Positions 503 through 29,649 of a DNA stretch of 64,000 nt are shown one piece after another (within the stretch, counting starts at the first letter, position 1; each line of letters opens with the position of its first letter). Position numbers and translations under genes: made by a program. Under the pieces are notes generated by a model. It was not told the origin of the DNA. It ran no database searches and saw only the letters and a program-made list of their open reading frames with translations. The stretch is taken from positions 1-64,000 of the IMG/VR virus record IMGVR_UViG_3300005532_000244; one strand, written 5' to 3'. This DNA comes from a virus.

Positions 503-574
503 GGGCGCGTAGCTCAGCGGGAGAGCACTCGCTTCACACGCGAGGGGTCGCTGGTTCGATCCCAGCCGCGCCCA
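503..574 (+). tRNA. tRNA-Val (CAC)
   Basis: A complete cloverleaf without encoded CCA. The acceptor strands GGGCGCG (503-509) and CGCGCCC (567-573) pair perfectly, with A574 as discriminator. The anticodon stem CTCGC/GCGAG encloses loop TTCACAC, giving anticodon CAC (valine). The T loop TTCGATC is standard. Its last 25 bases are the phage attachment core, so phage DNA supplies the 3' end and the gene stays functional after integration. Confidence 0.95.
550..574 (+). repeat. attL: attL core (3' end of tRNA-Val)
   Basis: A 25-bp sequence from G550 to A574 covering the T arm and acceptor 3' strand, identical to 63963-63987. Flanking bases differ on both sides (C549 versus A63962; T575 versus C63988), which fixes the repeat length. 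The integrase gene lies about 1.5 kb away, as is usual for tRNA-integrating phages. Confidence 0.93.
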
Positions 575-2028: not shown

Positions 2029-3066
2029 TCATGCCTCCCGCGCCTCCCGCTTCTCATGCCTGCTCGCAGCCAGAAACGCGTCCAGCGCCCCCACCGCCGC
2101 CGACACCTCGGCGGGATACAAGTGACGGTAAGTGCGGTAGATCAGCGCGCCGCCGTCCGAGTGGCCGACCCGGGCCGCGATCACCTCCGGCTTCATCCCC
2201 GACCGCGCCATCAGCGAGATCGCCGTGTGCCGCAGCCAGTGGAACTTGAAGCCCTCCAGGTCGCTGTGCTTCAGCGCGCGATGCCAGACCTTACGGAACC
2301 CCGACTCCGAGTAGCGGCCACCCTGCGCGGTCGGGAAGACAAGCCTCGTCCCGCGCGGCCGCACGAGCAGCTGCTCGCGCAGAAGCTTCACCTCGGACGC
2401 GGCGAGCGGCACCGGCTTGTCTCGCCGCGACTTGTTCAGCCGCGCCGGGATCTCCAACTGCGCACGGTCGAGGTCGAGCATCGAGTCCTCGAGCGAGACA
2501 GCCTCCGTCCAGCGGAAGCCGACGGTGCCGCAGACGAGCACGATCCGCTTCGCCCGCTCCGGCATCCAGGACGCGATCTCGTCGAGCTTGTCGGGCTCGA
2601 GCGCTCGGCCGCGGACGGGGAAGTGCTTGCCGAGCCGGATCTCGTAGATGCCGGGGTCGACGCGCTGGCCGCGCGACTCCGCCTCCCGGAGCGCCGCCTT
2701 CGCGAACTGCAGCTCGTTCCGTGCCGCGACGGGCGCTTTCCGGTGCCGCTTGCGGATGTGCGGCTCGGCGACCGAGCGGCGCAGCTGCGGGACAGGGATC
2801 TCGCGGAGCGGCTGCCAGGGCGCGTGGGACTGCTTGTGGAAGCGCACCGTCGCCGGCCGCACGTCCTTGCCTTGCGTCTTCGCGTCGAGGTGGGCATCGA
2901 GCTCGGCGCCGAAGAGCGTCGGCCGCTCCTGGTAGAGGTGGCCAAGTTTCTTCTTCAGCTTCAGGTCGAGCTCCGCGACCTCGGCGGCCTCCTTCGTCGG
3001 GAACGTCTGGTCGCGGAAGGGCGCGACCCTGACTTGCCAGCCGTTGCCTCGCTTGCGAATGCTCAC
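2029..3066 (-). CDS. int: Tyrosine integrase
   Basis: Encodes 345 residues. Catalyses attP x attB recombination through a 3'-phosphotyrosine intermediate. The N-terminal ~60 residues look like an arm-binding domain (GNGWQVRV, then the Lys-rich stretch KLKKKLG), followed by a core-binding domain. Catalytic set: Arg185 (GFRWTEAV), Lys212, the HxxR pair in FHWLRHTA (His276, Arg279), His302 (VGHSD) and Tyr313 (TYRHL). The GTG at 3066 has AAGGAGGACAGC upstream; reading further upstream runs into a low-complexity shadow of a neighbouring repeat and was not used. The start overlaps the stop of the excisionase-like gene. Confidence 0.93.
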   Translation of the reverse strand: MSIRKRGNGWQVRVAPFRDQTFPTKEAAEVAELDLKLKKKLGHLYQERPTLFGAELDAHLDAKTQGKDVRPATVRFHKQSHAPWQPLREIPVPQLRRSVAEPHIRKRHRKAPVAARNELQFAKAALREAESRGQRVDPGIYEIRLGKHFPVRGRALEPDKLDEIASWMPERAKRIVLVCGTVGFRWTEAVSLEDSMLDLDRAQLEIPARLNKSRRDKPVPLAASEVKLLREQLLVRPRGTRLVFPTAQGGRYSESGFRKVWHRALKHSDLEGFKFHWLRHTAISLMARSGMKPEVIAARVGHSDGGALIYRTYRHLYPAEVSAAVGALDAFLAASRHEKREAREA

Positions 3067-3308
3067 GCTGTCCTCCTTGTGGTGGGACGGCGAGCATTCC
3101 GCTTCTCGTGCAGGCTGGCAACCCGGGCCGGTCCTTCGGTGTGCGCGTCGAGGTATTCCTGGACGGCGGACTCGGGGTAGCGGCGGTCGTGGCCGAGCCG
3201 GACGCTGCGGATCTGGCCGCGCTGGGCGAGCCGCAGGATCGTTTCGGGGTGGCAGGCGAGCAGGTCCGCGACCTCTCTCGTCGTCAGGTGACGCTCGATC
3301 ACGCGCAC
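3063..3308 (-). CDS. xis: Excisionase-like helix-turn-helix protein
   Basis: Encodes 81 residues. The N-terminal half matches MerR/excisionase-type winged helices: LTTREVADLLACHPETILRLA, then RSVRLGHDRRYPESAVQEYL. Such proteins bend attachment-site DNA so integrase runs in reverse. The GTGA overlap with the integrase start supports the pairing. Named by fold and position; a generic DNA-binding role is the alternative. Confidence 0.75.
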   Translation of the reverse strand: MRVIERHLTTREVADLLACHPETILRLAQRGQIRSVRLGHDRRYPESAVQEYLDAHTEGPARVASLHEKRNARRPTTRRTA

Positions 3309-3350
3309 CGTTCCTGCCGGCGGATAGCGGCATCGCGAGTTTGCGTCGGC

Positions 3351-3992
3351 TCAGACGGCACGAACGAACTCCTCCGGCAACACCGCACACACAGGCGCGA
3401 AGTCCACGCGGCCGATCTTGCGTGGCATCAACTCGTCGTAACGGTCGAGCAGACCGACAAGCAGACCGAGATAGTCGGGCGCAACCCGCGCAGCCTCCGC
3501 AGCCTCCGCAGCCCACGCAGCCTCCGCAGCCCACGCAGCCTCCGCAGCCCACGCAGCCTCCGCAGCCCACGCAGCCTCCGCAGCCCACGCAGCCTCCGCA
3601 GCCCACGCAGCCCGCGCAGCTCTACCCGTCTCGGCCGCTTCGATGCAGGCGAGCACAGCGCCCTTGTCGTCGTACCCCGACTTCTCGGCCCACGCCGAGT
3701 ACAGCGGGTACGACCGGCGAGCGAGATAGGCGAGCAGCTTCCGGGCGAGCGCGTCGTCTCCGCCAGCCGTGCCCATCATCCGGGGCGCGAGCGCGAGCAA
3801 CTGCTGACGGCCCTCGTCGTCCAGCTTGTCGTTCACTGCGATCGCGAGCGCCCGGATCACCGGATGCACGCACTCCGGCGCGTCCGTCCAACCGTGTCGG
3901 TCGATCCAGTCGATCACCTGCATGATGCAGCCGCCCTCGCTCGGACTGCTTCCGACTCCTGAGCGAAGCCACGGCACGGTGTTGATGGTCAC
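3351..3992 (-). CDS. Alanine-rich hexapeptide-repeat protein
   Basis: Encodes 213 residues. The N-terminal ~110 residues form a helical domain containing [15 protein letters not shown] and two further helices. The middle (about 122-168) consists of AWAAEA hexapeptides encoded by six identical 18-bp DNA repeats, probably one long helix. The C-terminus ([14 protein letters not shown]) is a conserved-looking helix. The GTG at 3992 is supported by AAAGGA seven bases upstream; Met24 is an alternative. Similar Ala/Trp repeat proteins occur in other phages, some annotated as immunity-like, but no function is established. Confidence 0.65.
3502..3609. repeat. Six perfect 18-bp tandem repeats
   Basis: The unit GCCTCCGCAGCCCACGCA occurs six times without a mismatch at 3502, 3520, 3538, 3556, 3574 and 3592, with degenerate copies on either side. 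It lies inside the gene at 3351-3992 and encodes the AWAAEA hexapeptide. Units are a multiple of three, so copy changes keep the frame. Confidence 0.97.
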
Positions 3993-6153: not shown

Positions 6154-6614
6154 GCCGCCGCCCTTCGCGCGCGGTGAGCGAGCACCCACTCGCGCTGGCA
6201 GATCCGGCAGCGGCGGACACGACCGTTCTCGAGGTACGTGTTCTCAGCCGTGTACTCGTGGCCTTTCGAGCAGTGCGTTCGCCGAGCGAACTGCGCAGCG
6301 ATCCCCTCGCCTCGCCGCGTGTTCTCCTGCGGGGTCACGGCCTCGAGATGCGCGGGATTGACGCACGAGCGGCGGCGGCAGAGGTGATCGAGGACGAGGC
6401 CCTCGGGGATCGGCCCGACGAAGAGCCGGTACGCGATGCGATGCCCCCGCTCCCATGTGCCTCGCGGTGGTACTGAAAGCTTGGAGTAGCCGCCGCTGTC
6501 GAGTGCGCCGAGCCACTCCCAGCAGCCGTTCTCCATCACGTAGACGTTGTCGATGAAGCGCTCCGTGATGGTGCCCTCCTCGACGACGCGCAGTATCGGA
6601 GTCGCGGCAGGCAT
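6150..6614 (-). CDS. HNH endonuclease (homing-type fold)
   Basis: Encodes 154 residues. The central region GHRIAYRLFVGPIPEGLVLD followed by HLCRRRSCVNPAHLEAV is the HNH_3-type signature of phage HNH proteins, followed by CSKGHEY and CRICQRE zinc ligands. It is unlike the other HNH gene at 4670-5125. It lies between recT and the Cas4-like gene with TGATG and GTGA overlaps, so it is integrated in the operon. Confidence 0.85.
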   Translation of the reverse strand: MPAATPILRVVEEGTITERFIDNVYVMENGCWEWLGALDSGGYSKLSVPPRGTWERGHRIAYRLFVGPIPEGLVLDHLCRRRSCVNPAHLEAVTPQENTRRGEGIAAQFARRTHCSKGHEYTAENTYLENGRVRRCRICQREWVLAHRARRAAA

Positions 6615-7699
6615 CAGAACCGGATCGGGTCTCCGTTGGCGTCGACGAGGATCTCGCCGTCGTCTTCGCCGACGATCTCGCCGGCCTGGACGTCTTCGGG
6701 GGCGAGGTAGGAGCGGAGCGTCTCTTCGTACCGGTCGGCGTCTTCGGGGGTGAGCTCGGTCGCGTCGGCGACGCCGAAGACGCCGCGCAGCATCGCGCGC
6801 CACTGCCGTTCCTCGATCTCGTCTTGGAGTTGCGCGATCCGGTTCAGCTGCGCGTCGGAGGGGCCGGCGGCGTTGGGCTCGTCGCGGAGCTGTTGCCGGG
6901 CACCGATCGGGATCCCGCTCGTCGACGCGGCCGCGTGCGCGTTCGCGTCGCGCTCGTTCATCGGCTTGCCGTTGGCGGGCCCGAAGTCGTAGTCCTCGTC
7001 GAGGGCGCGGAGTACGCGATCGACGCGTTCGCTCACCTGTCGGCCGCGAGGCAGGGTCTTGAAGAGGCGACGCGCGACCGTCTTGCGCGCCATCTCGGGC
7101 CAGTCGTTCTTCCACGCCGGCCCGTCCTTCGTGCGGGACTTCGATCGGACGTGTTCGATCTGCGCGACGTCCATCACCTCGGGGTCAGCGACGAGGCGGC
7201 CGAACTCGTCGGTTGCGGTCGCGTACGCCCCGATCGGCTTGCCGCGTGGCGTGCCGAGCTTCGCCGGCTTGTGCTTCACCCACGCCTTCGCGCCGAGCTC
7301 GTAGTCGAACTCGTCGTTCTCGTAAATGACGTGCGCGTTGAGCGTGAAGCCGTCGTCGGCTGCGACCTTGCGTAGCCCGCCGATCATCGGCATGTACTGC
7401 GCTTTCGGCTTCCCGTTCTCCTTGAAGATCGCGAGGGCGGCCTCGCGGCCGTCGGGCATGAGGCCGTCCTGTGCGCAACGGAGCACGGCGCTGAACAGCG
7501 ATTCGCGGTCGGCGGTGATGAGCTCGGGGCTGCGGCGGATCGCGGTTGCGGTGACGCTGACGAACCGTTGCGGAGTGATGTCCTCGGGGAGCGCGTTCTG
7601 GATGCGCGCGACGAAGTTGTCGCTCGCGACCTCGGCGAGCACCTCTTGCATTGGGGTGCGCTTCACGACGGCGGTGCTGGTCTTGCGCGCGGTCGCCAT
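6614..7699 (-). CDS. recT: RecT single-strand annealing protein
   Basis: Encodes 361 residues, typical for RecT plus an acidic tail. Diagnostic segments: RFVSVTATAIRRSPEL, LRCAQDGLMPDGREAAL, YMPMIGGLRKVA and WPEMARKTVARRLFKTLP. It anneals complementary single strands during phage recombination and replication. The C-terminal third is acidic and probably binds partners. The Cas4-like nuclease two genes downstream would supply single-stranded DNA, in the place of RecE or lambda Exo. Confidence 0.95.
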   Translation of the reverse strand: MATARKTSTAVVKRTPMQEVLAEVASDNFVARIQNALPEDITPQRFVSVTATAIRRSPELITADRESLFSAVLRCAQDGLMPDGREAALAIFKENGKPKAQYMPMIGGLRKVAADDGFTLNAHVIYENDEFDYELGAKAWVKHKPAKLGTPRGKPIGAYATATDEFGRLVADPEVMDVAQIEHVRSKSRTKDGPAWKNDWPEMARKTVARRLFKTLPRGRQVSERVDRVLRALDEDYDFGPANGKPMNERDANAHAAASTSGIPIGARQQLRDEPNAAGPSDAQLNRIAQLQDEIEERQWRAMLRGVFGVADATELTPEDADRYEETLRSYLAPEDVQAGEIVGEDDGEILVDANGDPIRF

Positions 7700-9364: not shown

Positions 9365-9619
9365 TCACCGTGCTTCCTCGTCGTCGAGCAGTCTGCCGAT
9401 CGGGAGCTTGAGGACGTCCGCGATCCGGTGCAAACGCTCCACCGAGATCTCGGAGATGCCGCGTTCGTAGCGGCTGACCGTGATCCACGACATGCCGAGC
9501 GCGTGCGCGAACGACTCGATCGAGTCGAACCCGGCCTCCCGCCGGAGCCGACGGATCCGAGCTCCGAGCTTCTTGCGGCGGCTGTCCGCCTTCGTTCTCT
9601 TGGCTGCAGGACTTGACAT
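9365..9619 (-). CDS. Cro-like XRE regulator
   Basis: Encodes 84 residues, nearly all one HTH_XRE domain: LGARIRRLRREAGF, then MSWITVSRYERGISEI and LHRIADVLKLPIGRLL. It is the first gene of the leftward early block, divergent from the longer XRE gene at 9659. Small size and position match Cro of lambda-type switches. Its start codon lies within the operator dyad, so binding there would block its own transcription. Confidence 0.85.
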   Translation of the reverse strand: MSSPAAKRTKADSRRKKLGARIRRLRREAGFDSIESFAHALGMSWITVSRYERGISEISVERLHRIADVLKLPIGRLLDDEEAR

Positions 9620-9666
9620 ATCCCTACCGGACTAGAAAGCTACTAGTCATGAAACGATATGTCAAG
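9612..9666. promoter_or_regulatory. Divergent switch: concentric operator and promoters
   Basis: Two inverted repeats share one centre (9639). The outer arms are 11 bp (9612-9622 and 9656-9666, CTTGACATATC and partner), the inner arms GACTAG (9630-9635) and CTAGTC (9643-9648). The outer arms contain TTGACA, a consensus -35, on both strands, and both genes' ATG codons. Leftward, TTGACA (9665-9660) is followed after 17 bases by TAGCTT as a possible -10. Rightward the -10 is unclear. Confidence 0.75.
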
Positions 9667-10120
9667 AGCTAATAGATCAGAGGCTAACGCTCAACTAGCC
9701 GTACCGCGCAGACTCCTTCTTGAATACGTTGAGGAGGCGAACAAGCAGTTGGCGCGCCGGCGCGCGGTCGTGGGGGCACGGATCCGAGAGGCTCGGGAGG
9801 CGAAAGGCTGGTTCCAAAAGGAACTGGCCGCCCGCGTCCATGTCGAGCCGCAGACCGTCTCCAACTGGGAGCGCGGCCAGAGCACCCCGGACTTCGACAA
9901 GCTCGAGCTGCTCGCCCAGGTGCTCGAGCGGCCACTCACGTTCTTCCTGCTCACGGGCGACGAGGACGGTGGCCAGGCCGGCCTCGACGTCCCGACCGCC
10001 GAGAAGCTCCTCGCCGAGATTCGAGCGCTACGACGTGACCTTCAGCCTCTCCTCGATGTTGTTCAAGAGCTTCGACAAGCTCGCGCTCCAGCGACGCAAG
10101 GAGAGCGTCGAGGCCAGTGA
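9659..10120 (+). CDS. XRE-family prophage repressor
   Basis: Encodes 153 residues. Residues ~38-96 are an HTH_XRE domain (VGARIREAREAKGWFQKELA, VEPQTVSNWERGQSTP). The N-terminal ~35 and C-terminal ~45 residues (LLAEIRALRRDLQPLLDVV) look like helices for oligomerisation. There is no LexA/CI-type Ser-Lys protease domain, so induction would not work by RecA-stimulated self-cleavage. Divergence from the Cro-like gene over a shared dyad makes it the likely lysogeny repressor. Confidence 0.82.
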   Translation: MSRANRSEANAQLAVPRRLLLEYVEEANKQLARRRAVVGARIREAREAKGWFQKELAARVHVEPQTVSNWERGQSTPDFDKLELLAQVLERPLTFFLLTGDEDGGQAGLDVPTAEKLLAEIRALRRDLQPLLDVVQELRQARAPATQGERRGQ

Positions 10121-10286: not shown

Positions 10287-10700
10287 ATGATTCCGACGCG
10301 CGTAGGTCACCTCGGACGCTGGGCGACCGCGTTCGCCGCCGCCCTCCTCGCTGCCGGCTGCGGCGGCCGCGCCTCCATGAGCCCAAGCGAGATCGCATCC
10401 ACGATCCGCGCCCACACGAGTCCGGCGTTCGTCTTCCGCGATCGCAGCGTGCGCTGCAGCTCCTACGCGACCGGACACTGCCCGCGGTTCGCGCTCCGCG
10501 GCGTCCAGTGCGCAACCGGCCAGCCGCTCCGGTGCGACCTCCGCTACCTGCTCGTCAACGATCCCACCGCGAAGGACTCGCACCTGACGGTCGTAGTCGG
10601 CGTGACCGAGAAAGGCCACTCGGTGACCTGGAAGCAGGTCGGCGAGCGCTGCGATGAGGCGGGTGTGCCGCTTAACTGCAGCCTCGTGCTCTACACGTAG
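10287..10700 (+). CDS. Predicted lipoprotein, possible lysogenic-conversion gene
   Basis: Encodes 137 residues. The signal peptide ends in LLAAGC, a lipobox, so Cys25 would be lipidated and the protein anchored outside the cytoplasmic membrane. The mature part has several cysteines (CSSYATGHC, CATGQPLRC). It follows the repressor on the same strand, so it may be expressed in the lysogen; surface lipoproteins here often exclude superinfecting phage. That role is inferred. The 166 bases upstream hold no gene I could support. Confidence 0.65.
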   Translation: MIPTRVGHLGRWATAFAAALLAAGCGGRASMSPSEIASTIRAHTSPAFVFRDRSVRCSSYATGHCPRFALRGVQCATGQPLRCDLRYLLVNDPTAKDSHLTVVVGVTEKGHSVTWKQVGERCDEAGVPLNCSLVLYT

Positions 10701-19893: not shown

Positions 19894-22800
19894 GTGGGCA
19901 GGATCTCCCAAGCGCTCGTCCCCGTCACCCGCACGCCGCGCGCTGTCACCGTGGTCGAGCAGCAGCGGTCCGCGGGCCCGATGGGCGTCGGCCTGATCAA
20001 GTGGGCGGTCGGCAACGGCCTCGCACCGCTCGATCTCGCCAAGGCCGTCGAGCGCGAAGCGGCACGCACCACCGATATCCGCGACCTCGCCGTCCGGCTC
20101 GCCGGCCCCGACCCGACGATGGGCGCACCGTGGGCGAGCTTCGACGGCAACCGGCTGACCGGCGCGCAGATGGGGCCGGGCCAGCCGGCGACACCGTTCC
20201 CTCTGGGCGGCGACCCGCGCCAGTTCCAATACCGCGTCGGCTGGAACTACCCCTCCCCGCCCGACACCGACCGCGGCGTCGACGGCGAGCTGCTGCGCGT
20301 CCTCGCCGACAGCTTCGACCTGCTCCGGTTGTGCATCGAGATCCGCAAGAACGACATGTGCCACCTCGACTGGGACGTAATCCCGACCGAGAAGAACCGG
20401 TCGAAGCGCGAGCAGTGGTTGAAAGACAACGCCGGCGAGCTCGAGCAGATCAAGCAGTTCTTCGAGTGGCCCGAGGCCTACGTCACCCAGGACGCCGCCG
20501 GCCACTGGGTGCGCCGCGGCAAGGTCCGCTTCGATGTCTGGCTCGGCGCCCTGCTCGAGGACTTCTTCGTCGGCGACTGGCTGACGATCTGGCCCAGGCA
20601 GCTGCATAACGGCGCCACGGTCGCGCTTGACCGCGTCGACGGCATGAACATCAAGCCGCTGCTTGACCTCGACGGCCGCACACCGGAGCCGCCGATGCCC
20701 GCCTACCAGCACTACCTGTACGGTGTGCCGCGGGCGTCGTTCACGCTCGACGAGCTGCTCTACCGGCCGCGGACTGTCCGCAACCACACCCCGTTCGGGT
20801 TCAGCCATGTCGAGCAGATGCTCGTGCTCGTCAACCTCGCGTTGCGCTTCCAGATGTGGGAGACGCAGGCGTACACCGAGTCGGCGCTGCCGCTCGGCCT
20901 GCTCGAGTTCCCCGAGAACTTCTCGCCCGACCAGATCGAGGCGGTCGTGGAGACGCTCAACCAGGCGATCTCGGGGCTCGCCGGGGAGCGGCAGAAGTTC
21001 CACGGCGTGCCGTCCGGGACGAAGTGGAACGCGATCAAGCCGTTCGAGTGGGACCAGTCGTTCGCGCAGTACCTCGTCGAGTACACGGCCGCGATGTTCC
21101 GGCTGAACGCGATGAAGCTCGGGTTTATGCCCGGCCGCGGCAGCGGCGGCCAGGGCCTCGGCGGCAAGGGCTTCTCCGAGCAGCAGTCCGAGAACGACGA
21201 GAACAAGTCGACGATCCCGGACGCCCGCTGGATCGAGGGGTTGATGAACGAGGTGATCCAGCGGTACTTCAACCGCACCGACGTCGAGTTCGTCTTCACC
21301 GAGCTGCAGAGCGACGACGAGCAGTCGTCGATCGACGCGGACAAGGAGGCGATCTTCGCCGGGTTGAAGTCGTGGGATCAGGCGCTCGAGGAGCGCGGCG
21401 AGGAACCGGTGGGGATCTCGGAGCCGTTCCTGATGGCGCCGAACGGGATCATCTATTCGGTCTCCGACATTCAAGCGATTCAGGATCCGGCGTCGAACAA
21501 GGAGTACGAGCGGGCGCAGGCGCCGGGGCTGCCGATCTGGTCGGACCCTGACGCGGAGCCGGAGCCGGCACCGTTCACAGCTGGTGGCCTCCACGGCGGT
21601 CCGTCCGTGCCGCCGCTGGGCTCGGGCAGCGCCGACGGCGGAGACGTGCCGCAGCGTCAGCCGTCAGGCGCGCCCGGGCAGGCCACCGACAGGTCGGGCT
21701 CGCGGGGAGCGGCGCCTCGCGAGCCCGGCTCATCGGCTACTGGAAACGCAGATGCAAGCGACCGTTCAAGTAGCGCTGCGAGTAAGGCGGAGAAGTTCGA
21801 CACGACCTCCGGCTTCCAGCCGCGGCCGACGCTCGACCCGCGCGGCGTGCAGGACGAGCTCCGCCGCTGGAAGCGCAAGAGCGTCAAGGCGTGGCGGAAC
21901 GGCAAGCGCGACGTCGCCTTCGACACCGAGATCGTGCCGGAGACGCTGAAGGCGGAGCTGCTCGGCGAGCTCGCGAAGGCCGACGACGTGCTCGACGTCC
22001 GCGTCGCGTTCGACCATGCGATCGAGAAGGCCGCCGACATGAAGCATCCGATGGGGCAGGCCGGGCTCGAGTGGGCGAACTACCGGCACGCCGAGGAGCT
22101 CGAGCGCTCGTGCGGCACCTGCGCGTTCTTCCACCGTCAAGACGGCGGCCTCTCGACGTGCTCCATGTTCGACGTGCTCGTCGACGGCGACTTCACGTGC
22201 GAGGAGTGGCGCGGCCGCGTTTCGCAAAAAGATTCGCGTAACTCCGAGACGACGCACGCCGGCCTCGTCGTACGCGCCGCCGACACCGGCCGCGTGCTCA
22301 TGCTGCAGCGCTCGATCAAGGACGAAGCCGACCCCGCGCGCGGCACCTGGGAGTTCCCCGGCGGCGGCCTCGAGCCCGGCGAGACGCCGCTCGAGGGCGC
22401 GATCCGCGAGTGGCAGGAAGAGACCGGCGTGCAGCTGCCGCCGGGAACGTTGCACGGCTCCTGGAAGAACGGCATCTACGAGGGCCACGTCTACGTCGTC
22501 CCGTCCGAGCAGGACGTGCCGTTGAACGTCGACGCGGAGAACCGCACGGTCGCGAACCCCGACGATCCCGACGGCGACGACGCGGAGACGCTCGCCTGGT
22601 GGGCGCCCTCAGAGGCGCGCACGAACCCGGCGCTACGGCCCGAGTGCGAACTGTGCGACTGGGACATGATCGACGGCGCCGTGCCGGGCGCGCAGTTCAA
22701 GCTCGCCGGTGTCCTCGTCGACCTCGCGAAAGCCGCTGCGCCGTCCGACGGCGACACCGACCGGGAGAAGCGGATCAAGCAGCTCGCCGCGGTCGCCGGC

Positions 22801-23562
22801 GCAGCGCTCGCAAGCCATGCGGTCGGCGTCTACGGGCAGAAGGTCAAGCTCGGCCGGCAGACCAACGACCTCGTCGGCAAACTCGAAGACCACTACCGGT
22901 CAGCGCTCGAAGCTGGCTCAGGCGACGCCGCGAGCGCGCACCGGATCGACACGCTCGACCAGAACACGATCAACGCGATCGCCCGCCAGCGCGCGGAAGC
23001 GCAGCGGCCCGCCGCACGCACCCTCGTCGAGCAGGCAGCGAAAACCGGGAGCGTGAAGCCGCAGGCGATCAACGCGCTCGCCCGCGGCGCGAAGGCCGCC
23101 TACGAGGAAGGCTTCGGTCGCACCGTCACCCAGGCAGCACCCGACGCGCTCGCGGTGTGGCGGACGCTCGCGACCGACCCGTGCCAGCCGTGCGAGGAAC
23201 GCGACGGGCAGGTGTTCACGCTCAACGAGCTGCCGGGCTGGCCCGGCGACGGCGACTTCGGCGGCGATCTATGCGAAGGCGGCCCGAACGACCGCTGCGA
23301 GCTCGAGTGGCGGATGCCGGCGGAGGAGCCCGACGAGGAATACGTGGCGACCGCGGAGCTTGAGAAGACCGACGCCGCGGTACCGGTGGCGCCATCCGCG
23401 GGCGAGCATTTCGCTGAGCGTGTCGTCGGCGCGCTTGAGCGGCTCGCCGACAAACCAGCGGAAGAGCACCACCACCACGTGACCGTCGAGCAGCCGCCGC
23501 GCGGACCTGTCCGCGTCGAGAAGACCAGGGACGGGATGCGGCTGATCCCGGAGGAGGACTGA
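19894..23562 (+). CDS. Portal protein fused to NUDIX and MuF-like domains
   Basis: Encodes 1222 residues, over twice a usual portal. Residues 1 to ~600 are portal (DLLRLCIEIRKNDM; a long helix region near 310-430; HVEQMLVLVNLALRFQMWE). After a Gly/Pro-rich linker, a Cys-rich module near 740 (CGTCAFF, CSMFD, FTCEEW). Residues ~790-930 form a NUDIX domain with an intact box GX5EX7REXXEEXG at ~824-846. Residues ~1000-1140 resemble the MuF head-morphogenesis domain (AYEEGFGRTV, DPCQPCEERDGQVF). GTG at 19894 with GGAGAAG upstream. The portal is the DNA gate; MuF proteins enter the capsid; the NUDIX part would hydrolyse a nucleoside-diphosphate-linked substrate. Confidence 0.9.
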   Translation: MGRISQALVPVTRTPRAVTVVEQQRSAGPMGVGLIKWAVGNGLAPLDLAKAVEREAARTTDIRDLAVRLAGPDPTMGAPWASFDGNRLTGAQMGPGQPATPFPLGGDPRQFQYRVGWNYPSPPDTDRGVDGELLRVLADSFDLLRLCIEIRKNDMCHLDWDVIPTEKNRSKREQWLKDNAGELEQIKQFFEWPEAYVTQDAAGHWVRRGKVRFDVWLGALLEDFFVGDWLTIWPRQLHNGATVALDRVDGMNIKPLLDLDGRTPEPPMPAYQHYLYGVPRASFTLDELLYRPRTVRNHTPFGFSHVEQMLVLVNLALRFQMWETQAYTESALPLGLLEFPENFSPDQIEAVVETLNQAISGLAGERQKFHGVPSGTKWNAIKPFEWDQSFAQYLVEYTAAMFRLNAMKLGFMPGRGSGGQGLGGKGFSEQQSENDENKSTIPDARWIEGLMNEVIQRYFNRTDVEFVFTELQSDDEQSSIDADKEAIFAGLKSWDQALEERGEEPVGISEPFLMAPNGIIYSVSDIQAIQDPASNKEYERAQAPGLPIWSDPDAEPEPAPFTAGGLHGGPSVPPLGSGSADGGDVPQRQPSGAPGQATDRSGSRGAAPREPGSSATGNADASDRSSSAASKAEKFDTTSGFQPRPTLDPRGVQDELRRWKRKSVKAWRNGKRDVAFDTEIVPETLKAELLGELAKADDVLDVRVAFDHAIEKAADMKHPMGQAGLEWANYRHAEELERSCGTCAFFHRQDGGLSTCSMFDVLVDGDFTCEEWRGRVSQKDSRNSETTHAGLVVRAADTGRVLMLQRSIKDEADPARGTWEFPGGGLEPGETPLEGAIREWQEETGVQLPPGTLHGSWKNGIYEGHVYVVPSEQDVPLNVDAENRTVANPDDPDGDDAETLAWWAPSEARTNPALRPECELCDWDMIDGAVPGAQFKLAGVLVDLAKAAAPSDGDTDREKRIKQLAAVAGAALASHAVGVYGQKVKLGRQTNDLVGKLEDHYRSALEAGSGDAASAHRIDTLDQNTINAIARQRAEAQRPAARTLVEQAAKTGSVKPQAINALARGAKAAYEEGFGRTVTQAAPDALAVWRTLATDPCQPCEERDGQVFTLNELPGWPGDGDFGGDLCEGGPNDRCELEWRMPAEEPDEEYVATAELEKTDAAVPVAPSAGEHFAERVVGALERLADKPAEEHHHHVTVEQPPRGPVRVEKTRDGMRLIPEED

Positions 23563-27090: not shown

Positions 27091-28874
27091 TCTTTCGGCG
27101 CCGGTTCGGGGCGACGTTGGTCGCGATCGCTGTGGGGCTTGGGGTTGCGGGCGGCGTCGGCGGCGGCGTCGTGCTGTTCAATCCGCAGCCGGCCGCCGCT
27201 GCTGTGACGGCAAATCTCTTCGCCGTCGCGCCCGGGGCAGGTGTCGGCACAGCCAACTGTGCAGGCGACGCGACCGCGCGCACGTATGCGTACGCGCTCG
27301 CGAACGAGCCGAACATGATCTGCGCGTATGGGACGCGCGCCGATCTCGGCTACTCAGCAACCTCGTGGGACAACGCGTGCAAGGCGGCGTCGCTGATCAA
27401 TACGACCGGGTTGACCGTCGGTGTTGAGCCGGGGAACTACACACGCGAGTCGAGCGACGGCGACTTCATGAAGTCGACCGATTGCTCCGGCGGCAAAGGC
27501 GCGGCCGTCAACCCGAACTGCGGCGAGCAGGTGCCTACCTGTGCGGGCACCGGCACGACCGCCGCCTGGATCAAATACGTCCCCGCAAGCTCAACCGCCT
27601 GCCCGAATGTGCATTGGGTGGAGGACAGCCCGACCGCGCAGTCGGCCGGTTTCTTCTTCTTCAACCAGCAGTTCCACATCGTCATCCAGGGGTCGTGCTT
27701 CGACCTCGACTCGACCCTCCTCTACTACAGCCTCTCCGGTGTAGCTGGCGAGATCCAAGTCGTCGGCGACTCGCCGACGAACCCGATGCACCTGTACGGC
27801 ATCGAGTTGAAAGGCCCGAAGGATGTTCTCTTCAAGAACATCAACTACGGGCCCAACATCCAGTGCGGCAAGAACGACCCGAACGTGCCGGCCGCACTAC
27901 GGTGCGACCCGAACGGGCCGCAGTTCGAGGCGAAGCTCGCGAGCATGGGCACCGCGACCTCGTCGTGCAGCGCGAACAACACCGCAGCCTGCGGCGGCTT
28001 CTTCGTCAACGAGCAGTTCGTTGAGCCGTTCTTCCACCAGGGCCAGTTCAGCTTCGACGGCAGCACGCTGTACGAGAACGTCCGCATCCAAAACTTCATG
28101 GTCCACGACGCGCAGAGCACGGGCGTCGGCTCCGGGTTCCATCCGGGCTGCTTCATGTTCGACGGCGTCAACGGCGACTCGTCGCGGGCAGCAACACTCG
28201 GCAACATCATCTTCGACCACGTCTCCTGCGAACGGCAGACCGGCGAGGGCTGGCAGCTCCAGGACGGCGGGGTGATCGTCGAGAACTCGTACTTCTCGTG
28301 TCCGACCTATTCGGTCGGCGACGCGAGCGCGAACCCGACGGGGAAGTGGGATCTGTGCAACCCGGCGAAGGCGGCGCTGGGACTCGGCTGCAAGACATCA
28401 ACGCAGAACGGCTGCACCCAGACGAACGTGCTGATCCGGTATGACACCTTCGATTGCGGCAACTCGGCGTGTGTGCGCGTGCCGACATGGTCCGACGGCG
28501 GCTTCGGCAACTACAGCAGCGTTCGCTTCGTCGCCGACATCTTCATGAACTCGCTCACCGGGAACGCTGGCGCGCCCTGCTCGATCACCGGGGTGACGTT
28601 CTCGACCAACGCGTACGCGCCCGGTGTGTCTCAGTGCGGGTCGGGGAACACGACTCTCAGCTCCGGAGACCCGTTCACGCAGTCGAGTATTGCTACGCCG
28701 GGCGATTCGTGGTCGGCGTCGGCGCTGCTGAATTTGCATCTCGCGAGCAACAGCGCCGGTGCATCGGTGCCGACGGTGAATCCGGCGGTGCTCGGCAGCG
28801 ATTACCAGGTCGACCATGACGCGGATGGCAACCCTCGCGGGTCAACCTCTACGCACGTCGGGGCATACAACTAG
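27087..28874 (+). CDS. Secreted Cys-rich beta-helix-like protein
   Basis: Encodes 595 residues. Basic n-region and long hydrophobic core (MIFRRRFGATLVAIAVGLGV) indicate a signal peptide or anchor. The mature protein has many cysteines and repeated short strands ending in Asn or Gly (VLFKNINYGPNIQC, NIIFDHVSCERQTGEGWQLQ, VLIRYDTFDC), the look of a right-handed parallel beta-helix as in pectate lyases. A signal peptide is unexpected in a tail spike, so export by the lysogen is an alternative. Wobble positions are visibly less GC-biased than in neighbours, hinting at separate acquisition. Confidence 0.65.
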   Translation: MIFRRRFGATLVAIAVGLGVAGGVGGGVVLFNPQPAAAAVTANLFAVAPGAGVGTANCAGDATARTYAYALANEPNMICAYGTRADLGYSATSWDNACKAASLINTTGLTVGVEPGNYTRESSDGDFMKSTDCSGGKGAAVNPNCGEQVPTCAGTGTTAAWIKYVPASSTACPNVHWVEDSPTAQSAGFFFFNQQFHIVIQGSCFDLDSTLLYYSLSGVAGEIQVVGDSPTNPMHLYGIELKGPKDVLFKNINYGPNIQCGKNDPNVPAALRCDPNGPQFEAKLASMGTATSSCSANNTAACGGFFVNEQFVEPFFHQGQFSFDGSTLYENVRIQNFMVHDAQSTGVGSGFHPGCFMFDGVNGDSSRAATLGNIIFDHVSCERQTGEGWQLQDGGVIVENSYFSCPTYSVGDASANPTGKWDLCNPAKAALGLGCKTSTQNGCTQTNVLIRYDTFDCGNSACVRVPTWSDGGFGNYSSVRFVADIFMNSLTGNAGAPCSITGVTFSTNAYAPGVSQCGSGNTTLSSGDPFTQSSIATPGDSWSASALLNLHLASNSAGASVPTVNPAVLGSDYQVDHDADGNPRGSTSTHVGAYN

Positions 28875-28881
28875 TAGCTAG

Positions 28882-29649
28882 CTAGTGCTTCGTCGCGATG
28901 TACAAGAACCGTCCCTCACTGCCGAGCCCATACCGCCCGACCTCCTCGTGGCTGAACGCCGCGAGATAGTCACGCCTGCGGACCTCGAATCCGGCAGCGC
29001 GCACCCGGTCAGAGAAGTCAGCGCCGTAGACGCGAACATGGTCTGTCGCACCGAACGCTTGCAGTCGCTTTCGCGGGTCGGTGATCGTCGGATCCTCAAA
29101 CGTTGCTGGCTGGTCTTCGTGGACGGGATGCGGCAGGATCGCCTGTCCGCCTGGTCGCAGTACGCGGTGCATCTCGGCGAGAGCGGCCGCGTCGTCTTCG
29201 ACGTGCTCAAGGACGTGGCTACAGATGACAAGGTCGAACGAGCCGGAGTCGAACGGCATCGCCGTGACGTCGCCGACGATTGCGCCCTCATAGGCGGGGC
29301 TCGCATCCATCGAGACGTAGCGATCGCCGACGAGCCTGGAGAGCCGTTCCCGCAGGCCGTCTTCCGGAGCAATGTGCAGCACGTCCAAGGTTCCGGTAGT
29401 GACTGCGGTGTCGTTTCGGAGGTAGAGCGCAAGCAGCCGGTGGCGCTGCAGGCCGAGGCAGTTCGGGCAGAGCGAGTCGACGCCGTGCCGCGGGATGAAG
29501 CCTCGGAATGTGTGGTCGCAGCAGGGGCATTCGACCGTGACGCCCCGGTAGAGCACGGGCAGTGTTGCTTTGGCGACTCGGCGCACGCTGGGGCTGTAGG
29601 TGAAGAGCAGCGCTGGCAGACGCGAGTCTGTCTTCGCGAAGACCGGCAC
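28882..29649 (-). CDS. SAM-dependent methyltransferase with zinc ribbon
   Basis: Encodes 255 residues. The N-terminal zinc ribbon (ECPCCDHTF and LCPNCL) precedes a class I methyltransferase: DVLHIAPEDGLRERL, VSMDASPAYEG, MPFDSGSFDLVICSHVLEHV and LRPGGQAILPHP. It resembles small-molecule or sugar methylases more than DNA methylases. GTG start with AAAGGA upstream. It is on the minus strand inside the late operon and converges with the beta-helix gene, 7 bases apart with stop codons in several frames (TAGCTAGCTA), so it has its own promoter, typical of a moron. Confidence 0.85.
   Translation of the reverse strand: MPVFAKTDSRLPALLFTYSPSVRRVAKATLPVLYRGVTVECPCCDHTFRGFIPRHGVDSLCPNCLGLQRHRLLALYLRNDTAVTTGTLDVLHIAPEDGLRERLSRLVGDRYVSMDASPAYEGAIVGDVTAMPFDSGSFDLVICSHVLEHVEDDAAALAEMHRVLRPGGQAILPHPVHEDQPATFEDPTITDPRKRLQAFGATDHVRVYGADFSDRVRAAGFEVRRRDYLAAFSHEEVGRYGLGSEGRFLYIATKH

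Follow-up and report, generated by a model that had tools for sequence, protein, structure and literature searches.

The DNA between two divergent XRE-family genes of a virus poses the question of whether a phage can run its lysogeny switch from a single symmetrical site. A preliminary description had proposed as much, envisaging two concentric pairs of mirrored arms that would cover the start codons of both genes, block transcription as well as translation start in either direction, and take the place of the three operators of lambda. We examined this locus in a window of 64,000 nt, which is part of the record IMGVR_UViG_3300005532_000244 (65,364 bases for the full virus record). Its integrase, RecT and portal genes mark the record as that of a temperate phage (Table 1). 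A tRNA-Val (CAC) gene lies ~1.5 kb from the integrase gene and might be an attachment site or a carried tRNA. The portal gene is a single frame of 1222 aa that joins the portal to a NUDIX domain, and a related combination is found in the Arthrobacter phages Mufasa8 and Sonali.

The products of the two divergent genes both contain an HTH_3 domain and are 37% identical across 65 residues, with the similar segments TVSNWERG and TVSRYERG, which makes operators common to both proteins plausible. The gene for the 84-aa protein precedes recT and int, which lie on its strand, and would encode a Cro-like regulator at the head of the early lytic operon, whereas the 123-aa protein encoded on the plus strand, whose top match among solved structures is the ICEBs1 Xre regulator, would be a CI-like repressor. 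A divergent HTH_3/XRE gene pair in a temperate phage genome, with the smaller regulator at the head of the predicted early lytic operon, is the arrangement of a CI/Cro-type switch. Behind the repressor gene an open reading frame (10287-10700) begins MIPTRVGHLGRWATAFAAALLAAGC, a lipoprotein-like signal, and may be expressed in the lysogen.

To establish which parts of the two genes lie within the mirrored element we considered their start codons. The minus-strand gene has a sole ATG/GTG/TTG start preceding its HTH, the ATG at 9617-9619, and this does lie in the left outer arm, as had been proposed. The corresponding claim for the plus-strand gene points to ATG 9659 in the right arm, which opens a longer frame of 153 aa; this start is devoid of a Shine-Dalgarno sequence (+0.3 kcal/mol), and codons 1-24 of its frame, with a GC3 of 0.33 as against 1.0 in the next 13 codons and 0.80 in the training genes, and with negative codon log-odds across their length, look non-coding. 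The TTG at 9749, in contrast, has a Shine-Dalgarno sequence 11 nt upstream that is the strongest among all the starts checked (-12.2 kcal/mol). Because GC3, codon log-odds and Shine-Dalgarno sequence all contrast with those of ATG 9659, we place the start of the CI-like gene at TTG 9749, ~90 bp further in and outside the dyad; the placement is probable on strong, if not conclusive, grounds, and some PHROG profiles align slightly N-terminal of it. The mirrored ATG 9659 is taken as a by-product of the symmetry. Thus, the element most likely covers one start codon and not two. Moreover, a repressor bound to the DNA would block transcription and not the start of translation.

Table 1. Features of the regulatory locus and its genomic setting (window coordinates)
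Feature	Position	Strand	Remarks
tRNA-Val (CAC)	503-574		
Integrase gene	2029-3606	minus	
RecT protein gene	6614-7699	minus	
Cro-like XRE (HTH_3) gene	9365-9619	minus	84 aa; first in the leftward operon
Left outer arm, CTTGACATATC	9612-9622	plus	contains TTGACA 9613-9618 and, on the reverse strand, the start codon of the minus-strand gene (9617-9619)
TTGACA, candidate -35 of the CI-like gene promoter	9613-9618	plus	
Inner arms, GACTAG / CTAGTC	9630-9635 / 9643-9648		centre 9639, common to the outer arms
O1, inner dyad GACTAG-N7-CTAGTC (GACTAGAAAGCTACTAGTC)	9630-9648		operator-like; centred on the predicted lytic -10
TAGCTT, -10 of the predicted lytic promoter	9642-9637	minus	17 bp from TTGACA; prediction only
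Right outer arm, GATATGTCAAG	9656-9666		reads CTTGACATATC on the minus strand; contains TTGACA 9665-9660
TTGACA, -35 of the predicted lytic promoter	9665-9660	minus	
O2, GGCTA-N9-TAGCC (GGCTAACGCTCAACTAGCC)	9682-9700		operator-like dyad; centre 52 bp from the O1 centre
GAGGAGG, Shine-Dalgarno sequence for TTG 9749	9731-9737	plus	11 nt upstream; -12.2 kcal/mol
CI-like XRE (HTH_3) repressor gene	9749-10120	plus	123 aa from TTG 9749
Portal protein gene fused to NUDIX domain	19894-23562	plus	

The mirrored arms themselves are present as described, with outer arms of 11 bp and inner arms of 6 bp around the common centre 9639 and one TTGACA per strand in the outer arms. In all, 19 of 24 positions pair between 9612-9635 and 9643-9666, making this the top 55-bp dyad among all centres in the window (runner-up: 17). 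This score is borderline window-wide, being attained in 5 of 60 first-order Markov sequences of window length; none of 20,000 local shuffles matched the 55-bp dyad, and just one of 200,000 local simulations produced a mirrored run of 11 bp outside the inner dyad. The dyad is genuine: for a structure placed between two divergent regulator genes it lies far beyond local chance. The 7-bp gaps separating the outer from the inner arms match at merely 2 of 7 positions, and such poor pairing argues for two constrained elements as opposed to a recent simple inverted duplication. TTGACA is scarce in the window (3 occurrences on both strands vs ~9 expected), and two of the three are those in the dyad.

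On the minus strand, TTGACA and TAGCTT make up the window's one exact match to TTGACA-N16-18-TAnnnT. Transcription from this predicted lytic promoter would start at ~9630 and leave a leader of 11 nt before the ATG at 9619, so that near-leaderless transcription is plausible for this gene only. A sigma-70 scan yielded no promoter call at its stricter threshold. The mirrored TTGACA of the plus strand has AAAGCT at a spacing of 17 bp, which is a poor -10 (2/6 of the consensus). The locus might be read as a pair of overlapping divergent promoters with good boxes on the minus strand and a poor -10 on the plus strand, in which case a divergent promoter sharing the core of the lytic one is possible. 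The outer arms appear best explained as promoter -35 boxes, with the -35 pair accounting for 6 of the 11 mirrored bases and 5 left over; given the weak plus-strand consensus, the TTGACA on the left may not serve as a -35. As far as its sequence goes, the mirrored TTGACA pair is the one odd feature of this phage's switch. One could go further in discounting the plus strand and suppose that function is confined to the inner operator and the lytic promoter, the left TTGACA arm having arisen by accident or being left over from a small inverted duplication. While the poor plus-strand -10 and the random window-wide runs of equal score are in keeping with this idea, we give it very little credence, because the 11-bp mirrored run around the inner dyad is so rare in the local simulations and the mismatched gaps are unlike those of a recent duplication.

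The inner dyad, O1, is operator-like, and its centre falls within 0.5 bp of that of the predicted lytic -10. Palindromic operator-like sites between the two genes, with one over the predicted lytic -10, again follow the pattern of a CI/Cro-type switch. A search of the record for further sites gave two outcomes: CTTGACATAT occurs at this single locale with no further occurrence in the 65,364 bases, but the O1 type does have a second member, O2, which the preliminary description had missed and which counts against its notion of one site replacing lambda's three operators. O2 is in the same register as O1, and the pattern G[AG]CTA-N9-TAG[CT]C has only these 2 occurrences in the whole ~65-kb record. 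It is the weaker dyad (9/12 arm positions; local chance of ~0.05 for the match alone), and we regard it as a likely, though not certain, second putative operator. The tetranucleotide CTAG is strongly avoided in the window (22 observed vs ~186 expected from base composition), and 3 of the 22 fall within O1 and O2 (simulated P 5e-5). Elsewhere, at 28869-28887, the window has its third CTA-N9-TAG site (AACTAGTAGCTAGCTAGTG), which packs three CTAG into 15 bases; this GACTAG-like dyad overlies stop codons at the end of a gene and was set aside as an operator.

The same symmetry could in principle act at the level of RNA, in that transcripts entering from outside would fold over the 55 nt and hide the minus-strand start, whereas those starting inside would lack an arm and get translated. 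Both strands can indeed form a stem of 11 bp and 6 bp (-20.8 and -23.3 kcal/mol; z -6.8 and -6.0), but such a fold arises from any DNA dyad of this kind. Since the flanking genes are divergent, little transcription is expected from outside, and the inner dyad with its second copy 52 bp off fits a DNA-binding site better; we therefore think an RNA switch highly improbable.

We then sought related loci. No relatives of either XRE protein were confirmed in viral contigs, and the repressor gave one weak match only, within the HTH, against a phage collection. The portal protein recovered no match from genomes or viral contigs, and RecT recovered only distant relatives, in genomes. No other viral contig contained both outer arms with a variable gap. 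The left half of the dyad used as a pattern hit one viral contig, in an AT-rich phage coding region with no similarity to the window, which we attribute to chance. Comparison loci were those chosen by RecT similarity, a choice independent of the operators. In the one whose RecT has the highest identity (52%), L003 (IMGVR_UViG_3300045241_000093), the Cro-like gene likewise precedes recT and has a consensus TTGACA-17-TATACT promoter. The centre of a dyad GGTTGC-N8-GCAACC falls exactly on its -10, outer arms of 7 bp are concentric with that dyad (P ~0.001), and the start is nearly leaderless, the ATG lying 8 bp past the -10. It differs from the window in that its operator sequence is unrelated, and its outer arms carry further copies of the GTTGC motif of the inner half-site and no second TTGACA. 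This concentric operator-like dyad (L003:3736-3786) contains GCAACGTTGC, which by itself forms a perfect palindrome. In L022 and L026, too, dyads unlike O1 in sequence lie no more than 1 bp from the lytic -10. L004 has TTGACA-17-CATGTT with a GTG 6 bp further, and its dyads (of the TGTCACGTGACA type) are placed elsewhere; it and several other recT-bearing loci have no dyad on the -10. Among the loci compared, TTGACA on both strands is confined to the window. An operator-like dyad on the lytic -10 is, by these alignments of dyads and predicted boxes, a recurring plan realized in different sequences (L003, L022 and L026).

The outer arms of L003 raise the possibility that those of the window are also protein-binding elements and not, or not only, -35 boxes, serving as accessory half-sites for a tetramer or as sites for flanking dimers, so that the 55 bp would form one large operator. 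This comes close to what had originally been proposed. The 11 mirrored bases exceed a hexamer, each arm is centred 22 bp (2.1 turns) away from the centre of O1, on the same helix face, and the repressor gp33 of mycobacteriophage BPs is probably a tetramer, with a full operator of two half-sites separated by a variable spacer (PMC4557955). Yet the outer arm resembles the inner half-site in GAC only and has no second copy in the record, while the O1 type has one, and with 33 bp between them the arms are too far apart for one small XRE dimer. On balance such a large operator seems unlikely.

Taking the dyads, gene families, boxes, spacing, uniqueness of the sites and plan of the relatives together, we infer a scheme of binding, transcription starts and protein roles in which the locus is probably a temperate phage immunity switch, with a CI-like/Cro-like pair, O1 on the lytic -10 and O2 as a second operator. 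The proposal that divergent XRE genes flank the symmetrical operator of a lysogeny switch has to this extent good support in the anatomy, i.e. the integrase, RecT and portal genes, two HTH_3 proteins and a dyad on a -10-like box. A dimer of the CI-like protein on O1 would exclude RNA polymerase from the lytic promoter of the Cro-like gene. O2 lies ~five helical turns from O1, upstream of the lytic -35 and within the predicted leader of the repressor transcript, and might bind cooperatively with O1 or allow the Cro-like protein to block repressor transcription. The TTGACA of the left arm sits where the -35 of a divergent repressor promoter would be; if it is one, the two promoters would share one core, their occupancy by polymerase would be mutually exclusive, and O1 would also autorepress the repressor gene. 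The fullest version, in which the 55-bp mirror element combines both -35s of fully overlapping divergent promoters with a shared operator and the Cro-like start codon, and polymerase exclusion plus one dimer site supply most of the switch logic, is one that we entertain tentatively and with considerable doubt. Were such a symmetric promoter real, it would be a compact natural divergent switch on one shared promoter core and a useful test of the extent to which two states can be held by polymerase exclusion alone. If not, the phage would be one more orphan high-GC phage in the known range of CI/Cro-type switches. The operator-like dyads on the lytic -10 in contigs of unrelated operator sequence suggest a common plan among such phages.

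Several known systems share this layout. In lambda OR, N15, phiKO2 and PY54 the repressor and Cro genes likewise diverge from a region whose short palindromic operators overlap the promoters, and in PY54 a single operator is recognisable between cI and cro (PMC4488713); the window differs from all four in having two operator-like dyads 52 bp apart, one of them on the lytic -10, and the mirrored TTGACA pair. It is not a strict lambda-type switch of three operators and an S24 repressor, as it has two operator-like sites, and no match to an S24 peptidase was found in the record, and therefore no lambda-type self-cleaving repressor. Nor does it point to control of the ICEBs1 ImmR/ImmA type, despite the best structure match of its repressor, as the record has no match to the M78 (ImmA-like) peptidase family PF06114. 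The 33-34 region of BPs has divergent promoters PR and Prep, with one operator, OR, lying between the two boxes (-10 and -35) of PR and another, ORep, close to the repressor gene, a placement similar to that of O1 and O2, though its operator half-sites, CGACATATGTCG, are unlike theirs in sequence; BPs further displays integration-dependent immunity with a C-terminally tagged repressor (PMC4557955). Overlapping divergent promoters, such as may be present here, are also described for Pc/Pr of pLS20, where the site of the XRE-family RcoLS20 overlaps and flanks the core, but this plasmid system controls conjugation genes through DNA looping and two operators made up of numerous direct motifs, and a 55-bp concentric dyad goes without mention in the passages of that report considered here (PMC4207663). 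Judged from its letters, the locus belongs to the known divergent CI/Cro-type switches and is largely ordinary apart from its mirrored TTGACA.
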